This document shows, piece after piece, positions 23,524-36,348 of a DNA stretch of 64,000 nt (positions are counted from its first letter, which is position 1; each line of letters begins with the position of its first letter). The stretch covers positions 2,195,595 to 2,259,594 of the forward strand of contig JAWPMO010000001.1 of the NCBI GenBank assembly GCA_033344875.1, in the 5' to 3' direction. The translations under genes and the position numbers were made by a program. The notes beneath the pieces were generated by a model. That model did not search any database. It was not told where the DNA came from and worked only from the letters and a program-made list of their open reading frames with translations. The DNA comes from Ilumatobacteraceae bacterium. GTDB lineage: Bacteria; Actinomycetota; Acidimicrobiia; Acidimicrobiales; Ilumatobacteraceae.

Positions 23524-24687
23524 ATGCACATCGTCCAGCTCGCGAACTTCCACGGGCCCCGGTCCGGCGGCTTGCGCACTGCCCTCGACGCCCTCGCCAC
23601 CCGGTACGCGTCGGCCGGACATCGATGCACACTGATCGTTCCGGCCGCCGAGCATCACGTCTCGGCGACCGCGTGGGGATCGGTGATCGGCGTCGCAGCG
23701 CCGGTGATCCCCGGGCTCGGCGGCTATCGCGTGGTCACCGACGTGAAGCGGGTCGACTGGCTCCTGACGCGGCTTGCTCCCGATGTCGTCGAGCTCTCCG
23801 ACAAGACGACGCTCGTGCGTGCCGCCGGCCGGGCGCGACGACGCGGCGCATCGGTCGTGCTGCTGTCCCACGAACGCCTCGACGCCGTGCTCGGGCACGT
23901 CACCCGGCTCGGCGGGTTGGTGAGCGCTCCCGTTCGCCGATTCGACCGCTGCCTGGTCGCCGACGTCGATGCCGTCGTGTGCGCATCGCGATTCGCCGCC
24001 GCGGAGTTCGACGGGGTGCCGTGCCAACGGATCGAGCACATACCGCTCGGCGTCGATCTGGAGCGGTTCACACCCCGGACCAACGGCCGGAGGCCCGGCC
24101 CGCTCCGCCTCGTCTCGGTGGTCCGCCTCTCCCCCGAGAAGTCGCCCCACCTGCTGGTCGAGACGAGTCGAGCCCTCGTCGAGCGCGGGGTGGAGCACGA
24201 ATACCTCGTGCTCGGCGACGGCCCCCGTCGACGACGGCTCGTCGCTGCGGCACATGGTCTGCCGATCCGATTCGCCGGTCATTGCGCCGATCGACAGGCG
24301 GTCGCAGCGGCGATGTGCGATGCGGACATCGGCATCGCTCCCGGACCGAACGAGACGTTCGGGTTGGCCGCGCTCGAACTCCTGGCATCCGGCACGCCCG
24401 TGGTCGTTGCCGACCGGGGGGCGCTCCCCGAGGTGATCGGTACCGGCGTCGGTCTCACGGCGCCGGCGACCGGGGCCGGCTTCGCAGCGGCGATCGCCCG
24501 CTTGGCGGCAACCGTGATGTCGCCGACGGCTGAGGAAACGATCCGCGCCGACGCCCGCCGACACGCCGAGCAGTTCGACTGGGACGTGGCCGCCGGTTCG
24601 TTCCTCGATCTCTTCGCGCAGTTGCGGTCGGGCACGCCCGACGGGGCTCAGCGGGAGGCGGCGACGGTCGGGCGCTCGTACTTGTAG
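23524..24687 (+). CDS. GT4 glycosyltransferase
   Basis: 387 residues, beginning MHIVQLANFHGPRSGGLRTA, a typical GT4 acceptor-domain start with the GG loop. The donor half has RLVSVVRLSPEKSPHLLVE and ETFGLAALELLASGTPVVVA (E-x7-E donor motif: E...E). Predicted retaining glycosyltransferase using a nucleotide sugar, probably mannose or glucose. It lies 4 bp after the first GT4. Its 3' end overlaps the convergent response-regulator gene by 40 bp, so the last 13 codons are read on both strands. Confidence 0.85.
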   Translation: MHIVQLANFHGPRSGGLRTALDALATRYASAGHRCTLIVPAAEHHVSATAWGSVIGVAAPVIPGLGGYRVVTDVKRVDWLLTRLAPDVVELSDKTTLVRAAGRARRRGASVVLLSHERLDAVLGHVTRLGGLVSAPVRRFDRCLVADVDAVVCASRFAAAEFDGVPCQRIEHIPLGVDLERFTPRTNGRRPGPLRLVSVVRLSPEKSPHLLVETSRALVERGVEHEYLVLGDGPRRRRLVAAAHGLPIRFAGHCADRQAVAAAMCDADIGIAPGPNETFGLAALELLASGTPVVVADRGALPEVIGTGVGLTAPATGAGFAAAIARLAATVMSPTAEETIRADARRHAEQFDWDVAAGSFLDLFAQLRSGTPDGAQREAATVGRSYL

Positions 24688-25370
24688 CCGAGCCCCCGGA
24701 TCGTCACGATCCGCTGCGGGGAGCCGGGCGAGTGTTCGACCTTCGACCGAAGACGCTTGATGTGCACGTCGAGCGTCTTGGTGTCACCGACGTAGTCCGC
24801 GCCCCAGACCCGATCGATCAGCGTCTCGCGCGTCATCACTCGTCCCGCGTTGGCCAGCAGCAGGTGCAGCACCTCGAACTCCTTCAGCGGCAACGAGACC
24901 ACGTCGCCGTCGACGGTGACGCGATGTTCATCGGGGTCGAGTTCGACCGTGCCGACCCGGATCGCGCTGTCGGACGGGATCTCGAGCTCGCCGGTCGGGT
25001 CCGCAGCCGAACGGCGCAGCAGGGCCCGGATTCGGGCGATCAGCTCGCGGATCCGGTACGGCTTCGCGACGTAGTCATCGGCACCGACCTCGAGTCCGAC
25101 CACCGTGTCGATCTCGCTCGCCTTCGCAGTCACCATGATGATCGGCACCGCGCTCGTCGCCCGGATCTGCCGGCACACGTCGATGCCCGAGATGCGTGGC
25201 AGCATCACGTCGAGCAGCACCAGGTCGGGGGTGACCTGTTCGAACCGTTCGAGCGCCATCACGCCGTCGGTGGCGACGTGGACGTCGAATCCCTCACGCG
25301 TCAAGCTGATCTGCAGCGCGTCGACGAAGCTCTCCTCGTCTTCGACGATGAGGATCGTGGGCTGGCTCAT
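24648..25370 (-). CDS. OmpR/PhoB-type response regulator (RegX3/PhoP-like)
   Basis: 240 residues. The receiver domain (1-120) has EDEES acidic residues, the phosphoacceptor Asp in LVLLDVMLPRISGID, Thr in IIMVTAK and Lys in YVAKPY. The C-terminal winged helix ends with GDTKTLDVHIKRLRSKVE and VTIRGLGYKYERP, typical of RegX3/PhoB. As last gene of the pst-phoU-kinase run (ATGA overlap with the kinase) it should activate phosphate-starvation genes. The candidate target is the repeat set at 32318-32412 upstream of pstS. Confidence 0.92.
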   Translation of the reverse strand: MSQPTILIVEDEESFVDALQISLTREGFDVHVATDGVMALERFEQVTPDLVLLDVMLPRISGIDVCRQIRATSAVPIIMVTAKASEIDTVVGLEVGADDYVAKPYRIRELIARIRALLRRSAADPTGELEIPSDSAIRVGTVELDPDEHRVTVDGDVVSLPLKEFEVLHLLLANAGRVMTRETLIDRVWGADYVGDTKTLDVHIKRLRSKVEHSPGSPQRIVTIRGLGYKYERPTVAASR

Positions 25371-26563
25371 GCGACTCCTTCTTCGTGGTCGTTCTTCTGG
25401 TCGTTCTTCTGGTCGTTCTCGGATTGATGGCTCACGCCGGCGTCGAGCAACGGCAGACGCAGGGTGAAGGTCGAACCTTCACCCTCGATCGAGTCGACCG
25501 AGATCGACCCACCGTGGTTGGACACGACATGCCGCACGATCGAGAGACCGAGGCCGGTGCCGCCGGTCGACCTGCTCCGTGCCCGGTCGACCCGGTAGAA
25601 GCGCTCGAAGACCCGGTCGAGATCGCGGCGTGGGATGCCCGCACCTTCGTCGATGACGGCGACTTCGACCGTGTCGGCATCCGGCCGAACACGAATCTGG
25701 ACGACGTCGCCGGGATCGCTGTACTTCACCGCGTTCTCCAGCAGGTTGCCGACCGCCGACGACAGTTGGCGACGATCTCCGTGCACGACGGCGCGTTCGG
25801 CGTTCGGTCCATCAGGTCCGACAGAATCGAGCGTCGACAGCGAGATGTCGCTTGCGGCGGCCAGTTCGGCGACACGACCGACTGCGTCGATCACCACGTC
25901 GGACATCCGGACCGGACCGAAGTCACGCTGCTCACCACTCTCGATCTGCGACAGCTCGAGCAGATCGTCGATCGTGTGCGACGCCCGATCGGCCTCGCCC
26001 TGCATCCGACGGACGACCCGCTGGACGATCTCCGGGTCGTCGGTGCCCACGAGCGTCTCGGCCAACACCATCAGAGCGCCGATCGGTGTCCGAAGTTCGT
26101 GCGAGACGTTCGCCACGAAGTCGGTGCGCACCTGGTCGACCCGACGACGCTCCGTGATGTCGGTGACGAACGCGACCGCTCGACCGTCGTCGAGCGGTTC
26201 GGTGACGACGTGCACGACCCGGCGGGGTGGACCGAAGAAGTCGAGCACCTCGTCGCTGTGCGCACCGCGGGCGGCGATCATGAGGTGCTGCGTGACCGCG
26301 CCGTCGATCAAGGCGCCGACGTGGGTACCGGCCAGCGCCTCGGCGGCCGGGTTCCGGTACTCGACCACGCCGTTGCTGCCGGCGATCACCACACCGATCG
26401 GCTGGCGCTCGAGCGCTCGCTGGAAGAGTGTCGGCTCCGCCGGAGGCGGCGACACCGTGACGACCCCCTCGCCCGGGGGCACGGCCATGGTCGCCCTGGC
26501 CCACGACCACCCGGCAAGAAAGACGACGACCGCCCCCGCAACCATGAGGACCGCCATCGGCAT
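25367..26563 (-). CDS. sensor histidine kinase (SenX3/PhoR-like)
   Basis: 398 residues from ATG 26563. Membrane helix at residues 3-22 (AVLMVAGAVVVFLAGWSWA), a PAS domain (about 50-150; LFQRALERQPIGVVIAG), HisKA with the phosphorylated His in NVSHELRTPIGALMVLAETL, and an HATPase_c with N box LLENAVKYSD and G boxes DEGAGIP and GGTGLGLSIV. One helix plus PAS is the SenX3 pattern. It controls the adjacent regulator, with PhoU and PstB signalling phosphate status. The C-terminus reads NDQKNDQKNDHEE, encoded by a 12-bp tandem repeat. Only 2 bp separate it from phoU. Confidence 0.9.
   Translation of the reverse strand: MPMAVLMVAGAVVVFLAGWSWARATMAVPPGEGVVTVSPPPAEPTLFQRALERQPIGVVIAGSNGVVEYRNPAAEALAGTHVGALIDGAVTQHLMIAARGAHSDEVLDFFGPPRRVVHVVTEPLDDGRAVAFVTDITERRRVDQVRTDFVANVSHELRTPIGALMVLAETLVGTDDPEIVQRVVRRMQGEADRASHTIDDLLELSQIESGEQRDFGPVRMSDVVIDAVGRVAELAAASDISLSTLDSVGPDGPNAERAVVHGDRRQLSSAVGNLLENAVKYSDPGDVVQIRVRPDADTVEVAVIDEGAGIPRRDLDRVFERFYRVDRARSRSTGGTGLGLSIVRHVVSNHGGSISVDSIEGEGSTFTLRLPLLDAGVSHQSENDQKNDQKNDHEEGVA
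25387..25420. repeat. 12-bp tandem repeat at the 3' end of the kinase gene
   Basis: GGTCGTTCTTCT occurs at 25387-25398 and 25399-25410, followed by a partial third copy GGTCGTTCTC. On the coding strand it yields the NDQK-NDQK-ND series at the extreme C-terminus, a spot where in-frame slippage would change only tail length. Confidence 0.85.
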
Positions 26564-26565
26564 GG

Positions 26566-27291
26566 TCAATCGGCGCCTTCGTCCCCTGCGGATGTCGCTG
26601 CACCGACTCGCGCCTTGTGACGGAGCGCCGCGTCGTGCTCGGGCAACCATCCGGTCTTGATGTAGAGCACACGCTGACTGATGTTGACCGCGTGGTCACC
26701 GAGGCGCTCGTAGAACCGGGCGACCATGGCCATCTGCACCCCGACCTGGAGGTCGATGTGTCCGGCGGCGTGGCTCTCGAAGATCTGCTGGATCAGTTGG
26801 CGATGCAAGTCGTCGAGGTACTCGTCCATGTTCGGGATCGCTGCCGCTGCGACCTCGTCGTTGGCCATGTACGCCTCGACGACGTTCTTGTACTCCTGCT
26901 GCGCCTGATCGCTCATCCGCTGGATGATGCCGCGCAACTTCGGGTCGAGATCGTGTCCGTAGATGCGGCGCGCCGCCTTGCAGATGTTGCAACACAGGTC
27001 GGCGGAACGCTCGATCTCCGGTGCCAGCTTCAACGCAGCTGCGAGGTTTCGGAGGTCGCCGGCCACCGGAGCCTGCAACGCGAGCAACCGGAGCGCCTGC
27101 TCCTCGATGTCGATCGCCCTGGCGTCGATCTCGTCGTCGCCGCGCAGGACGTACTCGGCCCCCTCGAGGTCCTGTTGGAGCAGGATCCCGGTGACCCGCG
27201 GGATCAGTTCCACCACTGAGGCGCCCAGTCGGGCGATCTCACTCCGCACGCTCTCGAGGTCGCTGTGGAATTCATGTCGAAGGTCGTTCAT
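26566..27291 (-). CDS. phoU: phosphate transport regulator PhoU
   Basis: 241 residues, made of two three-helix bundles with the metal-binding repeats: ALKLAPEIERSADLCCNI in the first half and MVARFYERLGDHAVNISQRV in the second (E/DxxxD patterns binding Fe or Mg clusters). PhoU links PstB activity to the PhoR/SenX3 kinase and represses the regulon at high phosphate. Its start shares one base with the pstB stop (TGATG) and the kinase follows directly. Confidence 0.93.
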   Translation of the reverse strand: MNDLRHEFHSDLESVRSEIARLGASVVELIPRVTGILLQQDLEGAEYVLRGDDEIDARAIDIEEQALRLLALQAPVAGDLRNLAAALKLAPEIERSADLCCNICKAARRIYGHDLDPKLRGIIQRMSDQAQQEYKNVVEAYMANDEVAAAAIPNMDEYLDDLHRQLIQQIFESHAAGHIDLQVGVQMAMVARFYERLGDHAVNISQRVLYIKTGWLPEHDAALRHKARVGAATSAGDEGAD

Positions 27292-28202
27292 CAGCCGAAC
27301 CGTCCCGTCACGTATTGTTCCGTGCGCTCGTCATCCGGGTTGGAGAAGATCTTCGCCGTCGGGTTGAACTCGATGAGCCGACCGGTTCGACGGTCGCTCT
27401 CGGCGTTGACTTCGGTGACGAAGAACGCCGTCCGGTCGCTGACCCGGGCTGCCTGCTGCATGTTGTGAGTCACGATCACGATCGTGTAGTCCGACTTGAG
27501 TTCCTGCATCAGTTCCTCGATCCGGGTGGTGGCGATCGGATCGAGCGCTGAACACGGCTCGTCCATCAGCACCACGTCGGGGTTCGTCGCGATCGCCCTG
27601 GCGATGCAGAGGCGCTGCTGCTGCCCGCCCGACATCCCGAGCGCCGACTCCTTCAGACGATCCTTGACTTCGTCCCAGATGGCCGCCTTGCGCAACGAGC
27701 GCTCGACGATCTCGTCCATCTCCGGGCCCTTCTTGGCGAGCCCGCTCAGGCGGGGACCGTAGGCGATGTTGTCGTAGATCGACTTCGGGAAGGGGTTCGG
27801 CTTCTGGAACACCATGCCGATCCGCCGGCGCACCTCGACCGCATCGACCTTGGGGTCGTAGAGGTCGACGCCGTGGTAGCGGAGGCCGCCGGTGACCCGC
27901 GCCGACTCGATCAGGTCGTTCATCCGGTTGAAGCAGCGCAGCACGGTCGTCTTGCCACAACCCGACGGGCCGATGAAGGCCGTGATCTCGTTCTCGCGGA
28001 TGTCGAGGTTGACCTCCTTCACCGCCAGGAACTCGCCGTAGTACACCGCGAGGTCTTCTACCCCGAACACGACGCTGTTGTGGTCGGCGGTCTCGTCGGT
28101 GGCTCCGTGCCCGATGTCGGGCGCCGGGGCGTGCTGGTTCCGGATTTCCTCGGTCATGTTCACGTCCATCTGTCTTGGTGTCCTTGCTCCAGTGTTGCTC
28201 AT
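27291..28202 (-). CDS. pstB: phosphate ABC transporter ATPase PstB
   Basis: 303 residues from ATG 28202 (ATGA overlap with pstA). About 45 N-terminal residues precede the conserved start, longer than usual; an in-frame ATG (MTEEIRNQ) 15 codons in is an alternative. Walker [22 protein letters not shown]-loop [15 protein letters not shown], signature [20 protein letters not shown], Walker [13 protein letters not shown] and H-loop IVTHNMQQA are those of PstB. It powers high-affinity phosphate import. Confidence 0.95.
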
Positions 28203-29182
28203 CCGCGCTTCTTCTCGAAATGGTTCCTCAGGAGGATCGCCGCCATGTTCATCGCGAGGACCAGGCAGAGGAGCACGACGATCGCGCCGGCGGCGGCGCC
28301 GAAGAACCCCTCGTCACGGCCACGCTGTCCGACCCAGGTCACGATCTGGATCGGCAGTGCGGTGAAACGTTCACGAAGTTGGGTCGGGTCGGCCAACGAC
28401 GGGTTGTTCGTCAGGCCACCGCTGATCGCACCGATCAGGATCAGCGGAGCAGCCTCGCCGATCGCCCGCGACATCGCCAGCAAGCTGCCGGTGAGAATGC
28501 CGGGGGCGGCGTACGGGAGCACCTGGCTCCGAATCATCTCCGACTTCGTGGCACCGACGCCGTAGGCGCCCTCCTTGAGGCCCTGCGGCACGGAGCGGAT
28601 CGCTTCCTGGGCGGTGATGATCACGATCGGCAGCACGAGGATGGCCATGATGAGGCCCGCCGACGCGACAGTCGGACCACCGGTGATGGTCACCAACCAG
28701 CCGAGCGGGAGGAACCCGAGGATCTCGTTCCGCTCGACGAAGAGGAACAGGCCGAGCAGGCCGTAGACGACCGACGGTACGCCGGCCAGGTTGCGGATCG
28801 CGAGCTCGATCATCGAGTTGAGCCGGCTCTTGTGTGCGTACTCCTCGAGATACAGCGCAGCGGCGATTCCGGTCGGGAAGGCGATCACCGCGACGAAGAT
28901 GCCGATCCACAGCGAACCATACAGCCCCTGGTGGACGCCGAGTTGCTCGTCGATCGAACGAGACCGGAGGGTGCCGTTCAGGAAGTCGATGGGACGGGTG
29001 GTCAGGTGGAACCAGCCGTCGTCGACGACGGTGTAGATCAGTACCCCGATGAGGAGCAGCGAGATCAGGAGGCAGAGCGAGATCAGCGAACGAAAGACGA
29101 CACCGGAGGTGTCACGTTGCTTGCGTTCCAGGGCTTCGAGCCCGCGTCGCGCGCTGCCACCGATGGTGGATGTCATGGCCAT
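28199..29182 (-). CDS. pstA: phosphate ABC transporter permease PstA
   Basis: 327 residues from ATG 29182 (AGAGGA seven bases upstream). Six membrane helices and the PstA landmarks [35 protein letters not shown] and the EAA loop [18 protein letters not shown], which docks to PstB. Located 11 bp after pstC and overlapping pstB. Confidence 0.94.
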
Positions 29183-29193
29183 CGTCGATCCTC

Positions 29194-30138
29194 TCAGTAC
29201 TGCTCGCGGACGCGGGCGACGAACTTGTTGCCGATGATGTTGAGCACCAACGTCATGATGAAGAGCACCAGTCCGACGAAGAACAGGCTCTGGAACGTGA
29301 GGTCTTCCCCGACGACGGCGTCGGTTCCGCTGGCCAGCGATGCCATCGCTGCCGTCATCGTCAGGCTGCCGTCATACGGAGATGCCGTGTAGATCGCAGC
29401 GTCCGCAGCACCGCCGGCCATGAACACGACCATCGTCTCGCCGAGCGCACGGGAGATGGCGACGATGAACGCCGCGACCAGGCCGGAGACCGAGGCGGGC
29501 AACACGACCCGGAGGGTGGTGGTCACCTTGCGAGCGCCGATGCCCGCAGACGCTTCGCGAAGCGCATCGGGCACCGCTTTCATAGCGTCTTCCGAGATCG
29601 ACGCAACGAGTGGGATGGTCAGGATGCCGACGGCGATGCCGGCTGCCATGATCGAGCCACGGCCGCCTTCGCCACCGATGCGACCGACGACCGTCGGGGC
29701 GATCCAGGAGAGAGCGAAGAAGCCGAGCACCACCGACGGGATGCCGGCGAGCACCTCGAGGCAGGGCTTCAGGATGCGGCGGGCGCGAGGCCTGGCGTAC
29801 TCGGAGAGGTAGATCGCGGAGCCGAGCCCGATCGGTCCGGCGACGAGCATCGCGATCCCGGTGACCCAGGCACTCGCGATCAGGAGCGTCGGCATGTCGT
29901 ACAGACCACGACGCGGGAACCAGCCAACCTGGCCCCAGGTGGTCGACCAGTCGATGTCACGCATGAACACCCACGCCTCGGCGAACAATGCGTAGATGAT
30001 GAGGGTGGAGATGACGATCGAGAAGAGCGCCGCCCCGAGCAGGCTGAATCGGATCAGACGTTCACGCCGCAGACGTGGCGCCGACCCCATCAGGGCCGAC
30101 AGCGTCACGGGACTCGCTGTTTGGGTGATGTCGGACAT
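29194..30138 (-). CDS. pstC: phosphate ABC transporter permease PstC
   Basis: 314 residues from ATG 30138, with AGGAG about 15 bases upstream. Landmarks: EVLAGIPSVVLGFFALSWIA, EDAMKAVPDALREASAGIGA (EAA loop) and AISRALGETMVVFMAGG. Six membrane helices, with the N-terminal LIRFSLLGAALFSIVISTLI being the first. It forms the channel with PstA. A strong hairpin lies between pstS and this gene, so expression is probably lower than that of pstS. Confidence 0.94.
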   Translation of the reverse strand: MSDITQTASPVTLSALMGSAPRLRRERLIRFSLLGAALFSIVISTLIIYALFAEAWVFMRDIDWSTTWGQVGWFPRRGLYDMPTLLIASAWVTGIAMLVAGPIGLGSAIYLSEYARPRARRILKPCLEVLAGIPSVVLGFFALSWIAPTVVGRIGGEGGRGSIMAAGIAVGILTIPLVASISEDAMKAVPDALREASAGIGARKVTTTLRVVLPASVSGLVAAFIVAISRALGETMVVFMAGGAADAAIYTASPYDGSLTMTAAMASLASGTDAVVGEDLTFQSLFFVGLVLFIMTLVLNIIGNKFVARVREQY

Positions 30139-30165
30139 GTGCGAAGAACCTACTCCTGTCGAAAG

Positions 30166-30209
30166 TGAGCGTGACCCGAGCCGAGGGGGGACGGCTCGGG
30201 TCACGCTCA
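30166..30209 (-). terminator. 17-bp-stem hairpin between pstS and pstC (partial terminator/attenuator)
   Basis: Arms 30166-30182 and 30193-30209 pair perfectly (coding strand TGAGCGTGACCCGAGCC and its complement) with a 10-base C-rich loop. It starts 20 bp after the pstS stop and is followed on the minus strand by ACTTTCG, only a short T run. Such a structure can stop some transcripts and protect the pstS mRNA 3' end, giving more binding protein than permease. Confidence 0.75.
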
Positions 30210-30228: not shown

Positions 30229-32244
30229 TCAGCCGGCCCAGGCGGCGCGGGTGGCGGCCTTGGCGTCGTCGGCGAGTGCGACGTATCCGACTTCGGCGAC
30301 GGCCTGGTCGAGACCGTCGGCCATGTAGAAGTCGACGAACGCCTGGACCTCAGGACGCTCCGAAGCACTGGCGTTGTTGACGTAGATGAACAACGGACGA
30401 GCGATCGGGTACTCAGCCGACGCAATCGTCTCCGGCGTCGCATCGATACAACCCGACTCACCATCATCGACCTGCAACAACTTCACGCCCTCGGCGTTGG
30501 CAGCAAAGGCATACCCGACCCAACCGAGGCTGGTATCGGCACCCTGGATGCCCTGCAGGATCACGTTGTCGTCACCCGACGGGTTGTAATCCGGACGGGT
30601 CGTCGCATCCTGACCACGCTCATCGGCGAAGTCCTCCAACACGATCTCCACGAAGCTGTCGAACGTCCCCGACTCCTCACCAGGACCGAAGATGTCCAGC
30701 GGCGCATCCGGCAGATCGCCGGCACCACCGAGCTCAGCCGAAATGGCATTGCCATCTGACCAGCTCGTGAACCCGGTCGATTCCGGACCGATCAGCGCAT
30801 ACAGATCAGCGAACGTCACACACTCCACCGGGCTCCCGGTGTGCGTCATCACACCGATGCCGTCGATACCGACCTGCAACTCGGTGAACTCGATGCCATT
30901 CTCCGCACACGTCGCAGCCTCTTCGTCCTTGATCGCACGAGACGCATCCGAGATGTCGGTCGCACCATCACAGAACAGCGCGAACCCGTCACCGGTACCA
31001 GGACCATCAACCGAGATGTTCACATCCGGATACACCTCATTGAACAACTCCTGCGTCCGAACCGAAATCGGCTCCACCGTCGACGAACCAGAAATCACGA
31101 TCTCACCCGACAAGTCGGCGGGTGCTGCGTCCTCGGTCATGTCCTCGCTCATGTCATCGGTCGTGTCGTCGGCCGGAGCATCGTCGGCCGGTGCCTCGCC
31201 GGCCCAGGCGGCGCGGGTGGCGGCCTTGGCGTCGTCGGCGAGTGCGACGTATCCGACTTCGGCGACGGCCTGGTCGAGACCGTCGGCCATGTAGAAGTCG
31301 ACGTAGGCCTGCAGCGCCGGGTTGGCAGCGGCATTCGCGTTGTTGACGTAGATGAACAACGGACGAGCGATCGGGTACTCAGCCGACGCAATCGTCTCCG
31401 GCGTCGCATCGATACAACCCGACTCACCATCATCGACCTGCAACAACTTCACGCCCTCGGCGTTGGCAGCAAAGGCATACCCGACCCAACCGAGGCTGGT
31501 ATCGGCACCCTGGATGCCCTGCAGGATCACGTTGTCGTCACCCGACGGGTTGTAATCCGGACGGGTCGTCGCATCCTGACCACGCTCATCGGCGAAGTCC
31601 TCCAACACGATCTCCACGAAGCTGTCGAACGTCCCCGACTCCTCACCAGGACCGAAGATGTCCAGCGGCGCATCCGGCAGATCGCCGGCACCACCGAGCT
31701 CAGCCGAAATGGCATTGCCATCCGACCAGCTCGTGAACCCGGTCGATTCCGGACCGATCAGCGCATACAGATCAGCGAACGTCACACACTCCACCGGGCT
31801 CCCGGTGTGCGTCATCACACCGATGCCGTCGATACCGACCTGCAACTCGGTGAACTCGATGCCATTCTCCGCACACGTCGCAGCCTCTTCGTCCTTGATC
31901 GCACGAGACGCATCCGAGATGTCGGTCGCACCATCACAGAACAGCGCGAACCCGTCACCGGTACCAGGACCATCAACCGAGATGTTCACATCCGGATACA
32001 CCTCATTGAACAACTCCTGCGTCCGAACCGAAATCGGCTCCACCGTCGACGAACCAGAAATCACGATCTCACCCGACAAGTCACCAGCGGGCTCGTCGGT
32101 CATGTCGTCGCCGGTGTCCGGCTCCGACGTCTCCTCGCCGGACGGCTCCGCCGCCGGGCTGTCATCGTCGTCGCCACCACATGCGGCGAGGACGAGGGAC
32201 GCTGCCATCGCACCAGCGAGGAAGCGTTTCGAAGAAAACTTCAC
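30229..32244 (-). CDS. pstS: double-domain phosphate-binding lipoprotein (two fused PstS domains)
   Basis: 671 residues from GTG 32244 (GGAG seven bases upstream). A lipoprotein signal (RFLAGAMAASLVLAACGG) and an Asp/Glu/Ser linker precede two PstS domains of about 295 residues each. Both start LSGEIVISGSSTVEPISVRT, have DGPGTGDGF and DISDASRAIKDEE phosphate-pocket loops, FGPGEESGTFDSF, and end in ADDAKAATRAAWAG. Normal PstS has one domain. The domains are joined by an acidic 27-residue linker (EAPADDAPADDTTDDMSEDM...). They differ essentially in one patch near the C-terminus (NANAAANPALQAY versus NASASERPEVQAF). First gene of pstSCAB-phoU-kinase-regulator. Confidence 0.9.
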   Translation of the reverse strand: MKFSSKRFLAGAMAASLVLAACGGDDDDSPAAEPSGEETSEPDTGDDMTDEPAGDLSGEIVISGSSTVEPISVRTQELFNEVYPDVNISVDGPGTGDGFALFCDGATDISDASRAIKDEEAATCAENGIEFTELQVGIDGIGVMTHTGSPVECVTFADLYALIGPESTGFTSWSDGNAISAELGGAGDLPDAPLDIFGPGEESGTFDSFVEIVLEDFADERGQDATTRPDYNPSGDDNVILQGIQGADTSLGWVGYAFAANAEGVKLLQVDDGESGCIDATPETIASAEYPIARPLFIYVNNANAAANPALQAYVDFYMADGLDQAVAEVGYVALADDAKAATRAAWAGEAPADDAPADDTTDDMSEDMTEDAAPADLSGEIVISGSSTVEPISVRTQELFNEVYPDVNISVDGPGTGDGFALFCDGATDISDASRAIKDEEAATCAENGIEFTELQVGIDGIGVMTHTGSPVECVTFADLYALIGPESTGFTSWSDGNAISAELGGAGDLPDAPLDIFGPGEESGTFDSFVEIVLEDFADERGQDATTRPDYNPSGDDNVILQGIQGADTSLGWVGYAFAANAEGVKLLQVDDGESGCIDATPETIASAEYPIARPLFIYVNNASASERPEVQAFVDFYMADGLDQAVAEVGYVALADDAKAATRAAWAG
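30232..31116. repeat. 885-bp direct repeat, copy B (C-terminal PstS domain)
   Basis: Matches 31198-32082 at an offset of 966 bp. By reading both copies I see only one divergent 33-bp patch (30338-30370) and one silent base (30757 T versus 31723 C). It covers the whole second phosphate-binding domain. Confidence 0.9.
31198..32082. repeat. 885-bp direct repeat, copy A (N-terminal PstS domain)
   Basis: Partner of 30232-31116. The 81 bp between the copies (31117-31197) code for the acidic linker and are not repeated. The divergent patch lies at 31304-31336 in this copy. Confidence 0.9.
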
Positions 32245-32317: not shown

Positions 32318-32412
32318 GGTGAACGGATGCCGGGCGCTCAGGTGAACGCTGACTGAACACACGCGTCGGATCTCGGGCACGCTGACCAGGGGTTCTTCAC
32401 CCCGAGTTCACC
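32318..32412 (-). promoter_or_regulatory. PHO-box-like direct repeats upstream of pstS
   Basis: On the pstS coding strand GTTCAGT (32352-32358), GTTCACC (32341-32347) and GTTCACC (32318-32324) are spaced 11 and 23 bp, that is near multiples of one helical turn. GTTCACC repeats at 11-bp spacing are the known actinobacterial PhoP/PHO-box pattern. On the opposite strand TTCACC at 32396-32401 and 32407-32412 form another 11-bp pair. The most downstream unit lies about 74 bp before the GTG, with TAGCGT (32304-32309) as a possible -10. Confidence 0.6.
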
Positions 32413-32473: not shown

Positions 32474-34570
32474 TCAGCGGCGACTCTGGTGTTGGCGTTC
32501 GACGGCCCAGCGGTACATCCGCTCCTGGGCGTCGGGCCCGAACTCGTCGGGGTCGCCACATCGCTCCCACGAGTCGTCGGGCTGGAGTTCCCAGCGAACG
32601 ATGTCGTCGGCCAGATCGAACTCGAGCACCTGATCGAGCCACTCGCGGTGCTTCGGGTGGTCGATCGGCACGAGCACCTCGACGCGACGGTCGAGGTTGC
32701 GCGGCATCAGGTCGGCCGAACCGATGAGGTACATCGGTTCGTCATCGGCACCGCCGTGTTCGAACCGGTAGATACGACTGTGTTCGAGATACCGGCCGAG
32801 GATGCTCCGGACACGGATGTTCTCGGACAGACCGGGTACACCCGCCCGCATCGTGCAGATCCCGCGCACGATGCCGTCGATGCGCACGCCGGCGTCGCTC
32901 GCTTCGTAGAGGGTGTCGATCACCGCGATGTCGGCGACCGAGTTGCACTTGAGCGTGATGCGGCCCTCGGCGCCGAACGACGCCTCGTGCTCGATCAGGT
33001 CGATGAGCTGGCGTTTGAGATCGCGGGGCGCCACCAGCAGGGTGCGGTACTCCTCGCTGCGGCTGTAGCCGGTGAGGTGGTTGAACAGCTGCGTCGCGTC
33101 GGCGCCGATCTCGTTGTCGCAGGTCAGGAAGCCGAGATCTTCGTAGAGACGGGCCGTCTTGGAGTTGTAGTTGCCGGTGCCGATGTGACAGTAGCGACGC
33201 AGCTGATCGCCGTCGTCACGGACCACCAGGATCACCTTCGAGTGGGTCTTCAATCCGACCATGCCGTAGACGACGTGCACACCGGCGCGTTCGAGCTGCT
33301 TGGCCCACTGGACGTTGTTGGCCTCGTCGAAGCGCGCCTTGAGTTCGACCAGCACGGCGACCTGCTTGCCGCGCTCGGCAGCACGGATCAGGCTCTTGAT
33401 CATGTTGCTGTCGCCGCCGGCGCGGTACAGGGTCATCTTGATCGACTGCACCCGCGGGTCCTCGGCCGCCTGCTCGAGGAACGCCTCGACGCTGCTGGAG
33501 AAGCTCTCGTACGGATGGTGCACCAGCACGGCACGGTCGCGCATCACCGAGAAGATCGGCCGATCGGTGCCCTCGGCGAGGAACAGTCGACCGGCGGTGA
33601 CCGGCGGCCACGCACGATCTTTGAGCTCGGGCCGATCGAGGGAGTGCAGCTGCCACAGACAGCTGAGATCGAGCAGGGCGCGGTGACGCGACACGTTGCG
33701 CGGGTCGAGTTCGAGCTCGCGGACGAGGAGTTCGAGCAACTCGTCGCCGATCTGCCCTTCGACTTCGAGTCGGATCGCCTTGTTGAACCGGCGCTTGCGC
33801 AGCTCGAGTTCGACGGCTTCGAGCAGATCGTCGGCCTCGTCCTCTTCGAGGGTCAGGTCGGCGTTGCGGGTGACCCGGAACACCGCCCACTCCTCGACCA
33901 CCATGCCGACGAAGAGCGTCGAGAGGTGGGCGCCGATGACCTCTTCGGCGGGCACGAACCGGCCGTCGCCCAGCGGGATCAACCGCGGGAAGACGTCGGG
34001 CACCTTGAGCCGGACGAACCGGCGCTCGGCCGTGACGGGGTCGGCGACGTGGGCGGCGAGACTCAGCGCGAGGTTGGAGATGTACGGGAACGGGTGGCCC
34101 GGGTCGACCGCGAGCGGGGTGAGCACCGGGAAGATGCGCTGCTCGTAGAACTCGCGCATCGTGGTGCGGTCGACGTCGGACAGACGGTCCCACGAGACGA
34201 TCTCGATGCCCTCGGCAGCGAACGCCGGCACGAGTTGATCGACGAAGATGTCCTCTTGCCGAGCGAGCATCTCGGGCACCTTGGCCGAGACCTCGACGAG
34301 TTGTTCGAGTGGCGTGCGGCCGTCCCACGTGCGGTCGTCGATGCCGGCCGCGACCTGGTCGCGGAGTGCGGCGACACGAACCTGGAAGAACTCATCGAGG
34401 TTGGTCGCGAAGATCGCACAGAACTTGGCTCGTTCGAGCAGCGGGATGGTCGGCTCGGCAGCCAGCTCGAGCACCCGCTCGTTGAAGTCGAGCCAGCTCA
34501 GCTCGCGATTGAGGACGCGATGGGTCAGATCGCCCATGTCATCGAACGGCGCATCGGCGAGCTCGGTCAT
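32474..34570 (-). CDS. ppk1: polyphosphate kinase PPK1
   Basis: 698 residues, the usual PPK1 length. N domain starts NRELSWLDFNERVLELA; head domain has NLDEFFQVRVAAL; catalytic domains have MTLYRAGGDSN, the autophosphorylated His in VGLKTHSKVILVV (about residue 441), YCHIGTGNYNSKTA, and the second active-site His in YLEHSRIYRFE (about 592), ending DLMPRNLDRRVEVLVP. It reversibly makes polyphosphate from ATP. Placed directly upstream of the pst operon on the same strand, 230 bp before the pstS start; it could share phosphate control. A small gene precedes it by 13 bp. Confidence 0.96.
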   Translation of the reverse strand: MTELADAPFDDMGDLTHRVLNRELSWLDFNERVLELAAEPTIPLLERAKFCAIFATNLDEFFQVRVAALRDQVAAGIDDRTWDGRTPLEQLVEVSAKVPEMLARQEDIFVDQLVPAFAAEGIEIVSWDRLSDVDRTTMREFYEQRIFPVLTPLAVDPGHPFPYISNLALSLAAHVADPVTAERRFVRLKVPDVFPRLIPLGDGRFVPAEEVIGAHLSTLFVGMVVEEWAVFRVTRNADLTLEEDEADDLLEAVELELRKRRFNKAIRLEVEGQIGDELLELLVRELELDPRNVSRHRALLDLSCLWQLHSLDRPELKDRAWPPVTAGRLFLAEGTDRPIFSVMRDRAVLVHHPYESFSSSVEAFLEQAAEDPRVQSIKMTLYRAGGDSNMIKSLIRAAERGKQVAVLVELKARFDEANNVQWAKQLERAGVHVVYGMVGLKTHSKVILVVRDDGDQLRRYCHIGTGNYNSKTARLYEDLGFLTCDNEIGADATQLFNHLTGYSRSEEYRTLLVAPRDLKRQLIDLIEHEASFGAEGRITLKCNSVADIAVIDTLYEASDAGVRIDGIVRGICTMRAGVPGLSENIRVRSILGRYLEHSRIYRFEHGGADDEPMYLIGSADLMPRNLDRRVEVLVPIDHPKHREWLDQVLEFDLADDIVRWELQPDDSWERCGDPDEFGPDAQERMYRWAVERQHQSRR

Positions 34571-35203: not shown

Positions 35204-35479
35204 ATGAACACGAGCCCACTCCCCGATCCCGACTCGGCGACCGCATGGATGGCCGACGGCTCCTGTCGGATGTACCCGCCCGCCACGTTCTTCCCGAGCG
35301 ACGGCGTCGGCGTCGACAAGGCCCGCAAGATCTGCGCCGGCTGCCCGGTCATCGACACCTGCCTCGAGCATGCGCTCGAGCATCGCATCGAGCACGGCGT
35401 CTGGGGCGGCTGCAGCGAACGTGAGCGCCGTCGGATCCTGAAGCGCCGACGTCTCGCCGCCGAGGCCCACACCAACTGA
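35204..35479 (+). CDS. WhiB-family iron-sulfur transcription regulator
   Basis: 91 residues with AGGAGG at good spacing. The four [4Fe-4S] cysteines are Cys21, Cys44, Cys47 and Cys53 (KICAGCPVIDTC), followed by the GVWGGCSERER turn and a basic tail RRRILKRRRLAAE for DNA binding. WhiB proteins bind sigma factor region 4 and respond to redox or NO. The subclass (WhiB1/3/4/6) cannot be told with confidence. A second WhiB is encoded 320 bp away on the other strand. Confidence 0.93.
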   Translation: MNTSPLPDPDSATAWMADGSCRMYPPATFFPSDGVGVDKARKICAGCPVIDTCLEHALEHRIEHGVWGGCSERERRRILKRRRLAAEAHTN

Positions 35480-35798: not shown

Positions 35799-36113
35799 TC
35801 AGGCGCCGATGATGCTGCGCGCGGCCTGAGCCCGCTGGCGGCGGATGCGGCGACGCTCGCGCTCGGAGAGTCCGCCCCAGATGCCGAACTTCTCGCCGTT
35901 CTGCAATGCGAACTCGAGGCACTGACCGCGCACGACACAACCACGACAGACCTCTTTGGCCTCACGGGTGGATGCGCCACGCTCCGGGAAGAACAGGTCG
36001 GGATCGACGCCGAGGCAGTTGGCATCGTCCTGCCAGTTCTCCTCGAGCTCTCGTGGATGGAGCATGTCCTCGGCGATCGCGCCGGGGCTGTTGCCGTTGG
36101 TCGTGTTGGTCAT
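35799..36113 (-). CDS. WhiB2/WhmD-like transcription regulator
   Basis: 104 residues from ATG 36113, the start that leaves a usual-length protein. Cysteines 33, 56, 59 and 65 (EVCRGCVVRGQC) bind [4Fe-4S]. The segments DPDLFFPERGASTREAKEVC and GEKFGIWGGLSERERRRIRR are close to WhiB2/WhmD, which control septation and, in Streptomyces, sporulation. The 235 bp upstream (36114-36348) carry its promoter region and nothing else recognised. Confidence 0.92.
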   Translation of the reverse strand: MTNTTNGNSPGAIAEDMLHPRELEENWQDDANCLGVDPDLFFPERGASTREAKEVCRGCVVRGQCLEFALQNGEKFGIWGGLSERERRRIRRQRAQAARSIIGA

Positions 36114-36348
36114 GGTTTGGGACCCCCTGCCATGGTTCCCGCTTGCCCACCGGTGATGAGCACGTTCGATTGACCGCCTCGTCGATTGAGGTGACGGTGT
36201 AGTTACAACGATGTGATTCTCGCATACCATACCGCCTTCCCGCAAGGGTGCATTTCGCGAGTTCGTGACCTGGGTTGTCGCGCGGTTGTCGATGGTGCCC
36301 GTCGGCCTGCCCACTCGAACCCACCCAGCGTGGTCGACTGCGCGCGAT

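Follow-up and report, generated by a model that had tools for sequence, protein, structure and literature searches.

In high-affinity phosphate uptake, PstS carries out the capture step. The protein described here is a member of the PstS family, and substrate-binding domains in tandem are already known elsewhere. The published description of GlnPQ reports that its tandem domains bind ligand independently and that transport depends on the length of the linker (PMC8025302). Because the domains of GlnPQ differ, it does not isolate the question of whether an importer benefits from extra binding sites on each anchor, for which a homotypic two-domain PstS would be a natural test. Long-lasting concerted evolution in prokaryotes is described as rare (26 genes) in a study whose main text does not contain the word 'transporter' (PMC6053082). 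No title or abstract reporting a two-domain PstS was found in a literature search whose coverage excludes most subscription journals.

The 64-kb stretch of DNA analysed here (the window) comes from an actinobacterium related to Ilumatobacter and encodes a PstS chain with two near-identical binding domains instead of the usual one. The protein is probably a homotypic tandem PstS of an ordinary Pst importer, with copies kept alike by recombination and two putative phosphate sites per anchor.

Gene structure and the phosphate locus

The two-domain PstS lipoprotein gene is a single minus-strand open reading frame of 671 amino acids, with a GTG start at 32244 and its stop codon at 30229-30231. The copies at 30232-31116 and 31198-32082 align over 885 bases at an offset of 966 with 17 mismatches, of which 16 lie inside a 33-bp patch (30338-30370) and one, at 30757, is synonymous. 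Both copies are in frame within the same reading frame, and the original prediction of an in-frame 885-bp near-identical duplication, broken by a 33-bp patch and one silent base, proved exact to the base in the alignment. The higher-coordinate copy is the N-terminal domain (D1) and carries NANAAANPAL, while the lower-coordinate copy is the C-terminal domain (D2) and carries NASASERPEV; between them lies an acidic linker of 27 residues, EAPADDAPADDTTDDMSEDMTEDAAPA. Two stretches of the protein are matched by Pfam PF12849 and likewise two by NCBIfam TIGR02136, and one lipobox-like motif, LVLAACGG, was spotted by eye in the translation near the N-terminus, in agreement with the predicted arrangement of two binding domains behind a single lipoprotein signal. 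With a 24-base seed, no direct repeat of 100 bp or longer other than the pstS one turns up in the window, and a chance origin is thereby excluded. The features of the locus are as follows.

24648-25370, minus strand: PhoB-like response regulator (family matches below the curated cut-offs of named equivalogs; locus comparison)
25367-26650, minus strand: PhoR-like histidine kinase (family matches below the curated cut-offs of named equivalogs; locus comparison)
26566-27291, minus strand: phoU (Pfam/NCBIfam, locus comparison)
27291-28202, minus strand: pstB (Pfam/NCBIfam, locus comparison)
28199-29182, minus strand: pstA (Pfam/NCBIfam, locus comparison)
29194-30168, minus strand: pstC (Pfam/NCBIfam, locus comparison)
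30229-32244, minus strand: two-domain PstS lipoprotein gene, GTG start, 671 aa (ORF, translation, PF12849/TIGR02136)
30232-31116, minus strand: PstS domain D2, C-terminal (alignment, Pfam/NCBIfam)
30338-30370, minus strand: RPEV-like 33-bp patch of D2, 16 bases and 7 residues different from D1 (alignment)
31117-31197, minus strand: acidic linker, 27 residues (translation, linker comparison)
31198-32082, minus strand: PstS domain D1, N-terminal (Pfam/NCBIfam; AlphaFold2 model)
32083-32244, minus strand: signal with lipobox-like LVLAACGG and acidic N-terminal stretch (translation by eye; linker extents)
32343-32358, minus strand: PHO-box-like direct repeat of 11 bases, some 100 bp upstream of the pstS start (pattern search)
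32474-34570, minus strand: ppk1, polyphosphate kinase, upstream of pstS (Pfam/NCBIfam, locus comparison)

The AlphaFold2 model of D1 has a pLDDT of 92.7 and its top PDB matches are phosphate-binding proteins, the first being 4jwo; by sequence and predicted fold, D1 is a PstS. Residues T13, S59, R60, S149, G150 and T151 are invariant throughout a 28-row structure alignment (L063-L065 omitted) that includes both window copies, and the conserved GSSTV, ASR and SGT residues, which are presumably the phosphate ligand residues, are present in both D1 and D2. The full-length model, built from a three-row alignment, has a mean pLDDT of 33.7 and gives no domain arrangement.

The genes lie on one strand in the order ppk1-pstS-pstC-pstA-pstB-phoU-phoR-phoB. 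The order from ppk1 to phoB is also found in four related whole loci (G021, OX638350.1, L039 and G456), and the locus of G057 shares it as far as the contig end within phoU; at the G455 locus (L128) no ppk1 match was found within 16 kb. The PHO-box-like repeat upstream of pstS reads GTTCAGTCAGC-GTTCA, with a third GTTCACC 80 bp upstream of the start codon. The window contains a single instance of the pattern GTTCA-N6-GTTCA (0.06 expected from shuffling), and G021, G057 and OX638350.1 have equivalents ahead of their pstS genes. By analogy with the PHO boxes of Streptomyces, this 11-base direct repeat is a candidate PHO box. Beyond ppk1, two short reading frames with WhiB-like cysteine patterns, noted by eye, lie near each other at 35204-35479 (plus strand) and 35799-36314 (minus strand).

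The genome containing the window is a single contig of 4.97 Mb, 99.65% complete. Neither the full protein nor PF12849, used as queries against it, found a second PstS, a third PF12849 match falling below the family's cut-off. Among eight genus-mates searched, the TIGR02136 match is absent or weak and partial in six (G001, G003, G004, G005, G006 and G009), whereas G002 and G007 score 181 and 203 bits; the window pst locus may have been inherited patchily within its genus. The window's PstC and PstA are 76% and 72% identical to those of G455, a member of another family, versus 69% and 64% for the family member G021 (loci L124 and L128), while its PhoU is closer to that of G021 (62%, versus 47% to G455). 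Transfer or unequal rates are possible explanations of this unevenness.

Occurrence in other genomes and the question of assembly

A search of relatives for double-domain PstS, which the original prediction had proposed as a check, found the design in two further genomes. The first, G021, a single contig of 4,830,181 bp, is putatively that of Ilumatobacter coccineum YM16-304, a cultured relative; its pstS, at the same locus as in the window, is a reading frame of 702 codons with two domains. The published genome of I. coccineum YM16-304T is a finished sequence, for which one fosmid and two plasmid libraries were read on the ABI 3730xl (PMC3910706). The second, OX638350.1 (a chromosome record of 3,592,749 bp, taken as G391), likewise has a two-domain pstS at the same locus. 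Close relatives of both differ from them in this respect: G057, the sister of G021, has one domain in a 400-contig assembly, and G456, a one-contig near relative of OX638350.1, has a single domain.

The double form is infrequent in the overlapping samples that were searched. It was found in 2 of the 62 genomes with a match in the family sample (221 searched), in 3 of 160 among the matches listed for the order sample (397 searched), and in 1 of 21 in the family of G391, where the other 20 are single-domain (22 searched). A phylum sample of 246 genomes yielded a TIGR02136 match in 169, and only in G021 did two matches fall in one frame among the matches listed (G000 not being one of them).

The distribution also varies with contig number. 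When the family, order and G391-family samples were pooled, keeping the 74 genomes whose match reached 60% identity or more, with partial matches counted and contig numbers taken as rounded values, doubled PstS was present in 3 of 8 genomes with at most 10 contigs and in none of 66 with more than 10 (Fisher P 0.0009, or 0.008 once the window's genome is set aside). This is the pattern that short-read collapse of near-identical repeats would give, although contig number is confounded with lineage; fragmented genomes may under-report two-domain genes.

The absence of the double form from all 66 of the more fragmented assemblies could also be read the other way, as a sign that the organism really has one domain, or two separate genes, and that the tandem gene is an artefact of assembly. 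However, the copies are non-identical in the patch and the linkers, and collapse of near-identical repeats would lose a double form but never create one. Moreover, two further genomes, each a single contig, have this design at the corresponding locus, and one of the two, the putative I. coccineum, was finished from plasmid and fosmid libraries. Assembly error is therefore highly improbable; the objection that the original prediction had raised against itself is weakened accordingly.

Divergence and probable homogenisation of the two domains

Within each of the three genomes, D1 and D2 are far more alike than are counterparts between genomes. In a tree of 40 domains (40 rows, each a match with 59% identity or more that covers over 270 residues of the query), D1 and D2 are sisters within the window (100/99), G021 (100/99) and OX638350.1 (100/91). 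Grouping the window D1 with the G021 D1 is rejected (p-AU 3e-11); a single clade of window, G021 and G057 domains is not rejected (p-AU 0.076), although they do not come out together in the unconstrained tree. The synonymous divergence separating D1 from D2 is 0.04 in the window, where one of five synonymous codon differences lies outside the patch, 0.18 in G021 and 0.01 in OX638350.1, whereas between the window and G021 it is 0.83 for D1 and 0.71 for D2. Low divergence within genomes and high divergence between them imply either a recent duplication in each lineage or older copies that have been homogenised; the low values are also compatible with separate recent duplications.

D1 and D2 are 98% identical in the window and 93-94% in G021, and over an ungapped stretch ending 6 codons past the EVGYV motif their differences are clustered, as judged by the longest identical run, in the window (P 0.0004) and in G021 (P 0.017); OX638350.1, with 2 differences only, shows no clustering (P 0.61). 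The linkers were compared after trimming the final 18 bases from each stretch. In the window the N-terminal and internal linkers have a weak likeness (P 0.029), in G021 there is no detectable likeness (P 0.51), and in OX638350.1 the internal linker is an evident copy of the N-terminal one (none of 1000 shuffles scored as high). Between the window and G021 the N-terminal linkers are significantly alike (P 0.011), while the likeness of the internal linkers is not significant (P 0.28).

Clustered differences, together with linkers that have diverged while the domains have not, make homogenising recombination, by gene conversion or unequal crossover, a more likely explanation for the window and G021 than a simple new duplication. 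OX638350.1, by contrast, looks like a separate fresh duplication of a unit that included the end of the N-terminal linker, since a plain duplication suffices where there is no clustering and the linker is a fresh copy. The original prediction had offered very recent duplication or ongoing gene conversion as the meaning of the near identity, and of this the recombination component gains from the clustering and the diverged linkers. A single common origin for the window and G021 gains no such ground: the comparison of their internal linkers, which tested for a shared fusion junction, gave no significant likeness.

G021 offers a further sign of recombination between copies. Its D1 and D2 form a mosaic in which identical runs alternate with divergent patches, and at the codons where the two differ, the window and G057 favour opposite copies at 16 of the 33; the control mean is 0.28, and 3 of 120 controls were as high (120 quadruples from 12 pairs). 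Counted by sites the figure is 24 of 47 (control mean 0.27, 95% quantile 0.47), and it ranges from 0.33 to 0.57 with other outgroup pairs; L019 and L016 were omitted from the 40 tree rows in these tests. Over codons 17-24, a stretch chosen after looking, G021 D2 agrees with G057 at 0.90 and G021 D1 at 0.62. Because the control quadruples share rows and are non-independent, this mosaic signal is suggestive only.

Alternatively, the window gene may be a very recent, independent tandem duplication with no ongoing homogenisation, in which the patch was a later import into D2 and the internal linker came from the junction or from fast change. Such an event would explain why only one silent difference lies outside the patch, OX638350.1 looks exactly like one, single-domain relatives are common, and the internal linkers of the window and G021 lack a significant likeness. 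It is nonetheless considered rather unlikely: the window's two linkers are far more diverged than its domains, as a fresh copy of linker plus domain would not be, the G021 mosaic of identical runs and divergent patches does not fit, and the patch would still need one recombination event.

Under homogenising recombination, then, a PstS domain would first have been duplicated, and D1 and D2 would then have been kept alike by recombination between them, whether by gene conversion or by an unequal crossover such as from two domains to three and back to two. Meanwhile the linkers would have diverged, and the 33-bp patch would have escaped homogenisation or come from another PstS allele. The single domains of G057 and G456, relatives of G021 and OX638350.1, weigh against this history. 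A bolder version, in which the two-domain PstS is old and recurrent in the order, homogenised by recombination and hidden by short-read collapse, and in which the in-frame 966-bp (322-codon) repeat acts as a reversible dosage switch among one, two and three domains, is considered rather improbable. The repeat, near-identical and in frame, may nevertheless exemplify natural variation in the number of domains.

The patch, the two putative sites and known systems

All residue differences between D1 and D2 (seven) lie inside the patch, where several further residues are retained through different codons, and it is hence not a product of simple decay. Under a loose pattern, RPEV-like patches are present in 14 of the 62 distinct sequences less than 60% identical to D1; among the 38 at or above that level there is 1, namely the window's own D2. 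Since this version of the patch is seen elsewhere in the PstS family, the suggestion that it is a trace of a second pstS allele is supported, and the patch also speaks for recombination. Own-genome searches found no other PstS that could have been the donor, and within the window the patch sequence has a single occurrence. A break in codon composition was discarded as a sign of import, C-ending codons also rising toward the 3' end in single-domain relatives, among them L108, L103 and L105. Elsewhere in the order, two adjacent, diverged pstS copies occur as separate reading frames at L016 (G090), L020 (G077), G307:C1:379397-381428 and G369:C135; such pairs are a possible source of patches by recombination.

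Specialisation of the two domains, with the patch making D2 functionally different, has a precedent in the tandem domains of GlnPQ (PMC8025302), and the confinement of all seven residue differences to the patch might be read in this way. It appears very unlikely, however, because the patch, roughly residues 249-260 of the domain, falls where the C-terminal helices of the AlphaFold2 model begin and touches none of the columns invariant in the 28-row alignment, and everything outside it is the same. The original proposal that the patch may be the only functionally distinct part of the protein thus found no support. The sameness of D1 and D2 points to dosage or avidity, not to specialised domains. 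Two equal putative phosphate sites on one predicted lipid anchor would serve one PstCAB importer; under phosphate starvation each secreted lipoprotein would offer both sites, which would alternate in docking on the same PstCA, giving more sites per anchor with no second gene. The advantage in phosphate-poor water suggested by the original prediction is conjectural.

Compared with the PstS of PstSCAB (TIGR02136, nearest solved structure 4jwo), the window protein shares the predicted fold, the invariant residues, the lipoprotein-like signal and an operon with pstC, pstA, pstB and phoU. It differs in having two domains per chain where one is usual, though one is not a strict requirement. Tandem pstS genes that are separate, as in G090, G077 and G307 of the same taxonomic order, resemble it in having two adjacent PstS copies, but these are distinct reading frames and diverged, the G090 copies being 59% and 56% identical to D1. 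GlnPQ of Lactococcus lactis and the window PstS, the latter known from sequence, both have tandem substrate-binding domains that are joined by a linker and serve one importer. The GlnPQ domains form one chain with the membrane subunit and have different specificities (PMC8025302), whereas those of the window PstS are near-identical and sit on a separate lipoprotein, a contrast that points to dosage or avidity.
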